From the NCBI GenBank assembly GCA_947460255.1, contig CANHIS010000008.1, positions 1 to 64,000 of the forward strand: a stretch of DNA of 64,000 nucleotides, written 5' to 3'. The notes beneath the pieces were generated by a model that was not told where the DNA came from, made no database searches, and saw only the letters and a list, made by a program, of their open reading frames with translations. A program made the position numbers and the translations under genes. This stretch comes from Bacteroidota bacterium. Its GTDB lineage: Bacteria > Bacteroidota > Bacteroidia > M30B66. Positions 37,439-40,156 of this stretch are shown here, piece by piece. Positions within the stretch are counted from its first letter, which is position 1. Each line of letters starts with the position of its first letter.

Positions 37439-37801
37439 TTAGCGTAAAGGGTTGGTGGCGGAACGATGCAGCTCGAGTTTGCTTTCTAACAGCATACTTA
37501 ACTGGTTTTCCTTTTCCTGAAGTTGTTTTCGAAGGAACACGACTTCTTGTTCGAGGTGATGCAGATATTCGGCGTTTCGTTCTAAATCAGGGAAGGGCTG
37601 ATTGTTGCCACAAATGAGCGCATGTAAAGAAACACCAAGGGCGTGTGCAATTTTCTCAAGCCTATCGATCGTAATGGGCGAATTTCCCTTTTCGAGACGG
37701 TGATAACTTGATGTATCAATACCAATTACAGAAGCCATGTACTCTTGTGAGATGTTTCGTTGGTTCCGAGCATCTCTTACATGGTCGCATACGCGCGCCA
37801 T
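37439..37801 (-). CDS. XRE-family HTH regulator with C-terminal coiled coil
   Basis: NISQEYMASVIGIDTSSYHRLEKGNSPITIDRLEKIAHALGVSLHAL, then EQEVVFLRKQLQEKENQLSMLLESK. Confidence 0.92.
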   Translation of the reverse strand: MARVCDHVRDARNQRNISQEYMASVIGIDTSSYHRLEKGNSPITIDRLEKIAHALGVSLHALICGNNQPFPDLERNAEYLHHLEQEVVFLRKQLQEKENQLSMLLESKLELHRSATNPLR

Positions 37802-37876
37802 ATTTTAACAGGTGTAGATTTGGGAGAACAATTAAACGAATTGGTTATTAAAAAGCAAGCGATTGTTCAAGAAAGA

Positions 37877-37915
37877 TTTTGCACTGGACGCAAAACTTTT
37901 GCATCTGACGCAAAA
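37877..37915. promoter_or_regulatory. Tandem pair of near-palindromic 19-mers, candidate operator
   Basis: TTTTGCACTGGACGCAAAA (37877-37895) and TTTTGCATCTGACGCAAAA (37897-37915), 20-bp period. Confidence 0.6.
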
Positions 37916-38062
37916 GGACAATCCAAAACCCGCTCTAGCTTTGCCTTATTCGAAACCAGAAAGGAGGCAACCATGACTTAAGCAACAATCAATCAACACA
38001 CTTGGATCTGTAGGGAAATCTACACTCCCTGCCTTGTGTGGAATAAGATTACAACAACAACT

Positions 38063-38506
38063 ATGAAAATCTTTATCATCACCCTTATCACATTCGCCCA
38101 AATAATTAGCACGAGTTTAATTGCTAATGAATCACCAACAAAAAAACCTAACGATGTAAAACTAACCGTTACCATAGGAGGTAAAATAGGCATCAAATCT
38201 AAAGGGTGCACAGGAATCGGAATTTCCTGCCTTAAATTGGACATTGATTTAGAGGCAGTCAGATTTGGCAAAGCCCCAGAAGGTTCACAAATTGTTCAAT
38301 TTGAATTCCTTTCTGAAAGTAAAATGCAAATGACGTTTTTCAGCGAAAACTCAGGAGACATGGAGGTTGAATCAAACCAATCTTTAGGAAATCAACTTTC
38401 GAAAATGCTCGGCTACACTGATGTTGTGGTTTTGAAGGGCAAATACAAAACGATAAAACGTTCTGATGGCGCATATGTAGTTGTAGTAAATACAATGCGC
38501 AAATAA
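38063..38506 (+). CDS. Hypothetical exported protein
   Basis: Signal peptide MKIFIITLITFAQIISTSLIANE; no family recognised. Confidence 0.7.
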   Translation: MKIFIITLITFAQIISTSLIANESPTKKPNDVKLTVTIGGKIGIKSKGCTGIGISCLKLDIDLEAVRFGKAPEGSQIVQFEFLSESKMQMTFFSENSGDMEVESNQSLGNQLSKMLGYTDVVVLKGKYKTIKRSDGAYVVVVNTMRK

Positions 38507-38513
38507 AACAATT

Positions 38514-38546
38514 AACCGGGTGGAGGTAAAAACTTCCACCCGGTTT
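38514..38546 (+). terminator. Hairpin between the 38063 and 38559 genes
   Basis: AACCGGGTGGA-ggtaaaaact-TCCACCCGGTTT. Confidence 0.7.
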
Positions 38547-38558
38547 AACAACTATGCA

Positions 38559-39215
38559 ATGAACAAACAAACAACTCTACTTAGTTCAACAGTTTTCATT
38601 TTGTTATTGACGTCCTGTTTTAAAATGGCCATGCTTTACCACGGCGCCCACTCTCCCAAAATGGAGAAAGTAGCAGACATTCGAGCATTTGCAGAAAAGA
38701 AAAGCATTCCAATCGAAGGCTCTGCCATGATTGCAGAAGATTCTATCATGTATTCTTTTGTTACAAGAATGAATGACCACATCTTGTTCGACGAAAATGG
38801 CTATGCGATAAAATTCAACAGTGGATTCGAAAATGAAAAGTGTGGTGGCAACATCCTCAGCTTTATTGAAGGCCTAGACACCGTTTCATACATTGCTCGG
38901 GATTCAAACTGGACTCTTGAAAAAGAGTCGAACATGTGGGTAGATTTCGGCACTAAGAATCCTTACGATATCCAAAAACAATTAAAGGGTGAAGCTTTCA
39001 ATTATTGCGTGGTTTATTACTGGAACGTATTTTCAGGAAATCCTAACCACCGAGATGCTATAAAGGGGCTCCAAGCGTCTATCGCAAAAAACCCAAGGGT
39101 GAAAATCAAAATGATTTTAGTGAACCATGACATAAGAGATAACATTGATTTTAAAAAATTTGCCGAACGTGCTAATAAAATCAAAGGAGTAAAGGTTGAA
39201 GTAAACGAGAATTAA
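38559..39215 (+). CDS. Hypothetical lipoprotein
   Basis: MNKQTTLLSSTVFILLLTSCFKM lipobox; no family recognised. Confidence 0.7.
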   Translation: MNKQTTLLSSTVFILLLTSCFKMAMLYHGAHSPKMEKVADIRAFAEKKSIPIEGSAMIAEDSIMYSFVTRMNDHILFDENGYAIKFNSGFENEKCGGNILSFIEGLDTVSYIARDSNWTLEKESNMWVDFGTKNPYDIQKQLKGEAFNYCVVYYWNVFSGNPNHRDAIKGLQASIAKNPRVKIKMILVNHDIRDNIDFKKFAERANKIKGVKVEVNEN

Positions 39216-39217
39216 CC

Positions 39218-40156
39218 ATGCAAAAGCTGTTTTATAGAAAATGTCTGAGAATAGCTTTCCTCCTCCTGTGGATTGTGCACAGCACTCAAGCACAATTCGA
39301 TGATCCTTGTAAATTCAGTGAGCATGTGAAAACCGAAAATGCTTTACCGTCAAATCCCGACAGCCTGAAGCCTTCGAAATGGAAGCTTGTTCAAAAACAC
39401 CAATTCGATGCTGCATTTAATGGTAGAACACGCAACGAAATCTCTCAATCGATTTGCAAATTGAGTGCTTCTTCAAGATTATCGTTTGAACTAAAATACC
39501 TATACAAAAAAACTAGTGTTGATGTTAGTTTAAACGACGAAACATCCGCAACTATTCTTCTCGACAGCACTTTCGAAAAGCAAAACGACTTATTGAGGCT
39601 AAAGATTTCAATTGAACACAATACGCAAAAGGAAAACTTTAAAAAATCGGTCTCTGCTCAGCTCTCAACGCAAAAACTTCCCTCGAAGAAAAATGGTAGC
39701 GACATAAACGAATCAGCATTTCTTTCACCCGCTGAATTGATCATTGCGCTTGGGATGAACGTTAAGCTGCAATCACTCGGACAAATTGAATGCGGAATTG
39801 GAAGTTTGAGATTCACATGGATAGATCAAAAAAAACTCTATGATCTTCAGAAATCTGCTCAATTGCATGGCATCGAAAAAGGCAGAGGCCACAAACTCGA
39901 AGGAGGATTTTCTTTTCAAGCCCAATGGCAAAAAACAATCACCAAAAATATTACTTGGGAAAACAAAACACTTCTCTTTTCTAGCATCACCGAACCTGGA
40001 ATGCCAAACATTGAACTTCGAAATGACCTACTCTTGAAGTCTGGCAAATCTGTGCAAACCGCCGTTCGATCTATTTATACCTACAACAAGACCAAATGGC
40101 CGCCTGCAAGTTTTGGAGGGGAAATCGCACTTGGCGTGATGCTTAACAAAAACTAA
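39218..40156 (+). CDS. Hypothetical exported, strand-rich protein
   Basis: Signal peptide ending STQAQ; starts 3 nt after the upstream stop. Confidence 0.7.
   Translation: MQKLFYRKCLRIAFLLLWIVHSTQAQFDDPCKFSEHVKTENALPSNPDSLKPSKWKLVQKHQFDAAFNGRTRNEISQSICKLSASSRLSFELKYLYKKTSVDVSLNDETSATILLDSTFEKQNDLLRLKISIEHNTQKENFKKSVSAQLSTQKLPSKKNGSDINESAFLSPAELIIALGMNVKLQSLGQIECGIGSLRFTWIDQKKLYDLQKSAQLHGIEKGRGHKLEGGFSFQAQWQKTITKNITWENKTLLFSSITEPGMPNIELRNDLLLKSGKSVQTAVRSIYTYNKTKWPPASFGGEIALGVMLNKN

Follow-up and report, generated by a model that had tools for sequence, protein, structure and literature searches.

A conserved pair of palindromes predicted to be the operator of an adjacent XRE-family regulator in a Bacteroidota family

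Two nearly identical palindromes lie between a gene for an XRE-family regulator and a divergent operon in the genome of a Bacteroidota bacterium, which raises the question of which protein reads them and how they act on the genes at either side. We examined this region within a 64-kb window (the whole stretch of DNA analysed). The original prediction described two 19-mers that differ at three central bases, and both their positions and the confinement of the mismatches to these bases were confirmed. A single base pair separates the sites, whose starts lie 20 bp from each other as the proposed 20-bp period requires, and the dyad symmetry claimed for each was found as 6-bp arms (TTTTGC/GCAAAA) plus a seventh R/Y position. 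The distances given were also right, namely 76 bp to the XRE start codon at 37801 (minus strand) and about 150 bp to the divergent ATG at 38063. While the identity of the 19-mers stood, the GAC common to both beside the dyad did not hold up as part of the motif, being not conserved among orthologues, where the centre is N5. The features of the region are as follows:

37439 to 37801, minus strand: XRE-family regulator of 120 aa (HTH_3 domain plus a long C-terminal helix), presumed binder of the sites
37877 to 37895, plus strand: predicted operator site 1, TTTTGCACTGGACGCAAAA, an exact match; distal for the divergent operon (centre about -62) and proximal to the XRE gene; one of a pair conserved in nine orthologous regions
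37897 to 37915, plus strand: predicted operator site 2, TTTTGCATCTGACGCAAAA, an exact match; proximal for the divergent operon, centre about -42
37936 to 37943, plus strand: predicted -7 box of the divergent operon, TAGCTTTG (consensus TAnnTTTG), 20 bp after site 2
37960 to 37981, plus strand: leader element, Shine-Dalgarno-like AAAGGAGG followed by the two-codon open reading frame ATG-ACT-TAA
38063 to 38506, plus strand: first operon gene, a small protein with an apparent signal peptide and the motif GEIGIKxxGCxGxGLSC, syntenic in nine genomes
38559 to 39215, plus strand: second operon gene, a putative lipoprotein with an invariant Cys20, syntenic
39218 to 40156, plus strand: third operon gene, a putative secreted protein, in the same order in L034-L040 and followed by convergent pgk

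Exact matches to TTTTGCN7GCAAAA occurred at three places in the 4.13-Mb source genome, two of them at this locus, and the reversed control gave none. The next-best tandem pair within the window scored 20/28 vs 28/28 for the operator pair. A chance repeat was ruled out by these pattern counts and pair scores, together with the reversed controls and a class-wide scan (see below). A 73-codon, TTG-started open reading frame (37760-37981) spans both sites and shows no sign of being a gene; we rejected a coding origin because the centres of the conserved motif vary freely, as codons would not.

The neighbouring regulator was assigned to HTH_3 at 54.4 bits in Pfam (curated cut-off, 23), and its predicted model (pLDDT 83) combines five short helices with a long C-terminal one, with 434 repressor/Cro, DdrO, C.AhdI, SinR, and ClgR as Foldseek neighbours. 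Its matches to C-protein and CapH models reflect HTH similarity only, and we discarded a defence annotation; a defence-model search of the operon proteins gave no match. We searched for orthologues in 40 relatives and in the whole 10-genome family, and found the XRE gene in nine of the ten family genomes, spanning five genera (29-83% identity), with the HTH residues and an SQE triplet invariant across all nine. The order of regulator, operon, and pgk was kept as far as the contigs reach, barring lineage insertions and duplications, and the neighbours in all genomes were kdsB-like, HU/SPOR-like, T9SS-tail, and secreted proteins and pgk. Phylogenetic footprinting, proposed earlier as a check, recovered tandem palindromes (TTTTGCR-N5-YGCAAAA, 20-bp offset) in the same divergent control region of 9/9 orthologue-bearing genomes, so that the motif is not absent near orthologues, the outcome that had been named as a refutation. 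The proximal site matched at 13-14 of 14 positions in all nine operon promoters and scored at least as high as the distal site in each; the distal site is degenerate in G002, G005, and G006.

The tandem pattern search also led to the promoter of an unlinked DUF2851 gene (PF11013), which lies downstream of pyrF. Two to three motif copies, some of them degenerate, were found upstream in 9/9 inspected DUF2851 genes of the family, and in some of these a second good copy lies two periods off. The best upstream site is 41 bp away in G003, G004, and G007. The predicted model of DUF2851 had no fold match in the PDB.

In promoters of the main Bacteroidota sigma factor, TAnnTTTG forms the -7 element (PMC7366714), located at -12 to -5 (PMC9723704). 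On the operon strand, a box with 6/6 consensus positions lies 20 or 21 bp past the proximal site in 9/9 genomes. We tabulated 21 promoters (nine operon, nine DUF2851, one transposase, and two examples of an element in G008, the last two kinds described below), and the gap between array and -7 box was 20-21 bp in all of them, with 4-6 of 6 consensus positions in the 12 promoters other than those of the operon. With start sites inferred from the -7 consensus, the site centres fall at about -42/-43 and -62/-63 in 21/21; measured from these predicted boxes, an operator centred at -42/-43 occupies the class II (lambda CI-like) position. Like sigma-ABfr promoters, which have TTTG at -33 and TAnnTTTG at -7, all tabulated operon promoters carry TAnnTTTG; unlike them, none of the 21 promoters has TTTG near -33, and the GCAAAA end of the operator takes that place. 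We dropped the missing TTTG as proof of activator dependence because it is rare at -33 in the lineage anyway (3/55 intergenic -7 boxes).

These observations suggest a model in which every TTTTGCR-N5-YGCAAAA palindrome would be occupied by an XRE dimer, and two adjacent dimers, on almost the same face of the DNA, would bind cooperatively, as the original prediction had expected. The proximal dimer at about -42 would touch RNA polymerase and activate the divergent secreted-protein operon, much as lambda CI does at OR2 or a restriction-modification controller (C) protein at its target. At the unlinked DUF2851 gene, the XRE protein would act from this same position, and it would control its own promoter as well. 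Judged from sequence comparison, the model as a whole, an operator pair of an adjacent C-protein/CI-like regulator that binds cooperatively, activates both the operon and DUF2851, and controls itself, is probably correct. Its parts can be graded separately: the sites are very probably bound by the adjacent XRE protein, activation is likely to be the main effect at the operon, and cooperative binding is what we infer from the paired sites. With respect to activation, the SQE triplet counts for little, since it is widespread among XRE proteins and makes contacts to the DNA backbone as well. For C proteins and lambda CI, it has been named as the sigma-contact patch (PMC4824078). Two features are in keeping with an activator in contact with polymerase from -42, namely the greater strength of the proximal site and the distance from operator to core promoter, which has stayed rigid while the spacers have diverged.

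Repression is the role of many small XRE proteins, and the same binder might act with the opposite sign, as a plain repressor whose operators overlap the upstream edge of the core promoters of both the operon and its own gene and thereby exclude RNA polymerase. The regulator strand of G002, G003, and G004 speaks for such an arrangement, with a -7 box only 13-14 bp from the array, a distance at which the sites would cover the core promoter on that strand. However, repression does not require the gap to stay at 20-21 bp in all 21 promoters while the spacers diverge, and the proximal site stops upstream of the -7 box, at about -33, covering neither that box nor the start site. We therefore consider plain repression rather unlikely and retain activation as the favoured reading at the operon. 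As for control of the regulator's own promoter, 4/4 genomes outside the window's genus carry a regulator-strand box of at least 5/6 at a gap of 20-21 bp (chance 0.022 each), and autoregulation is likely in those genera. Within the genus, apart from the three genomes just named, no such box was found on the regulator strand in two genomes, including the source genome, for which autoregulation is consequently less clear.

We further scanned 395 genomes of the class for the tandem pattern with up to one mismatch, and matched 7 of the 10 genomes of the family. The remaining 385 genomes gave no exact pair and five chance-like one-mismatch matches, with none in the reversed control. G009, which is 73% complete, had no match to the XRE gene, the motif, or DUF2851, and keeps a 173-aa XRE paralogue. 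Motif and XRE gene go together, with a common family-limited distribution. This bears on whether some other DNA-binding protein reads the palindromes and the XRE gene is a mere neighbour. The family genomes do hold other XRE paralogues, one of them 172-205 aa long, which could serve as such a protein; yet the shared distribution, the absence of motif and XRE gene from a genome that keeps a paralogue, and the finding that the best-conserved motif copy always lies at the XRE gene make another binder very unlikely. Two family members (L062 and L064) have public records titled 'Chitinophaga pinensis'; since they have this locus in common with other Bacteroidetes MAGs, these species titles look wrong.

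The tandem array was detected at only three loci of the source genome, XRE, DUF2851, and an IS200-like (Y1) transposase gene on contig C18 (L120:2865-3333). The latter is flanked by GC-rich CCCCGGACTGAAGTCCGGGG palindromes and has three copies of the operator and a -7-like box in front of it, with dxs on the other side. IS200-like transposase genes were rejected as general targets, as the array was present at 1/12 only and the 11 other family loci were without it. In G008 (L121-L132), about 15 dispersed intergenic copies of an element were found, made up of the operator pair, GCACCTRTTCAGCTTCTTCG, a -7-like box, and a GC hairpin (GGGGGCCCGGTGGTCCCC). Five copies form an array with a period of roughly 400 bp on one contig, and neither transposase gene of G008 has the array. 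That the palindromes belong to a mobile REP-like repeat without a regulatory role is most improbable: although the pair is contained in the G008 copies and adjoins a transposase gene with GC-rich palindromes, three loci in the source genome, and about 15 copies in G008 only, do not make a REP/RAYT family, the XRE, DUF2851, and transposase copies have only operator, gap, and -7 box in common, most transposase loci lack the array, and conservation was already seen at single-copy orthologous promoters.

None of the three operon proteins had a Pfam or NCBIfam match over the cut-off. Distant relatives of the lipoprotein occur in other families, and at L195 (genome G140, of another family) a similar operon stands beside a LuxR-type regulator, with neither palindromes nor a TAnnTTTG box in its control region. 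The first operon gene (GEIGIKxxGCxGxGLSC family) is tandemly duplicated in G008 (L040:6761-7877) and in the other-family genome (L195:4003-4877). Between the first and second operon genes lies a strong inverted repeat, AACCGGGTGGAGG / CTTCCACCCGGTT (38514-38545, plus strand), possibly an attenuator or a processing hairpin.

In the operon leader, the Shine-Dalgarno-like AAAGGAGG (GAGAGGAGG in G001) followed by ATG-AC(T/A)-TA(A/G) was present in 5/5 genomes of the window's genus, with ATG-ACA-TAG in G004; the two-codon frames of other leaders read ATG-AAG-TAA in G005 and ATG-AAA-TGA in G008. A conserved Shine-Dalgarno-led minigene is odd, given that ribosomes of Bacteroidia reportedly disregard such sequences (PMC9976891). 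A structured leader RNA was rejected, since folding was no better than that of shuffles, and an Rfam search of the leader gave no family above the gathering score. The leader also contains TTGGATCTGTAGGG (38002-38015, plus strand), which is complementary to TCCTACAGATCCAG directly before the DUF2851 start codon (L155). This complementarity spans 9-14 nt in the five genomes of the genus and exceeded all 300 shuffles in G000 only, while the other four kept 9-12 nt with the same DUF2851 segment; antisense pairing of the two leaders is possible, at weak significance.

A wider reading, which we hold to be unlikely, places the regulator at the head of an activator network that is specific to the lineage and owes part of its spread to mobile DNA, with the operator pair, the 20-bp spacer, and the -7 box as a portable module. 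This module would drive the secreted-protein operon and DUF2851 throughout the family and would have been captured by the IS200-like transposase gene in the source genome. In G008 it would have been scattered about 15-fold, in the form of an element from which a short GC-hairpin RNA starts, and the operon leader in the window's genus would add the Shine-Dalgarno-led two-codon frame.

In PRM activation by lambda CI at OR2/OR1, dimers sit on adjacent palindromes, one of which is centred near -42. The locus is like lambda CI in its XRE fold, adjacent palindromes, and a site centred at about -42, here measured from the predicted -7 box. It is unlike lambda CI in that the -42/-62 distances refer to the Bacteroidota -7 box and occur on both flanks in four genomes, that the regulator has no peptidase-like C-terminal domain, and that the locus is chromosomal and single-copy. 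With C proteins (C.Csp231I, C.AhdI), it shares a small HTH_3 regulator with an SQE triplet and a fold match to C.AhdI, as well as two palindromes upstream of the controlled promoter; the half-sites have the 5-n5-5 layout of C.Csp231I (C-box CTAAG-n5-CTTAG, twice), here TTGCR-N5-YGCAA. C.Csp231I is activator as well as repressor of its own promoter, and activation was lost when its OL site was mutated (PMC4824078). In contrast to C proteins, no restriction or methylase gene is present at the XRE locus, the predicted targets are a secreted-protein operon and DUF2851, and a long C-terminal helix is added; the half-site also differs from that of C.Csp231I, and the offset is 20 bp rather than two 15-bp palindromes separated by 18 nt. 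The operator pair therefore resembles the C protein/CI kind but is neither a restriction-modification controller nor, in its own genome, a REP family, and its regulon is undescribed.

To our knowledge, hardly any regulators of uncultured freshwater Bacteroidota are known. The present case combines a motif and its putative regulator with a fixed promoter geometry and at least two conserved targets, and a single protein and a short DNA would suffice to test the activator model. The same association may also offer a regulatory lead for the DUF2851 family, which only a single paper of those searched names, with one mention.
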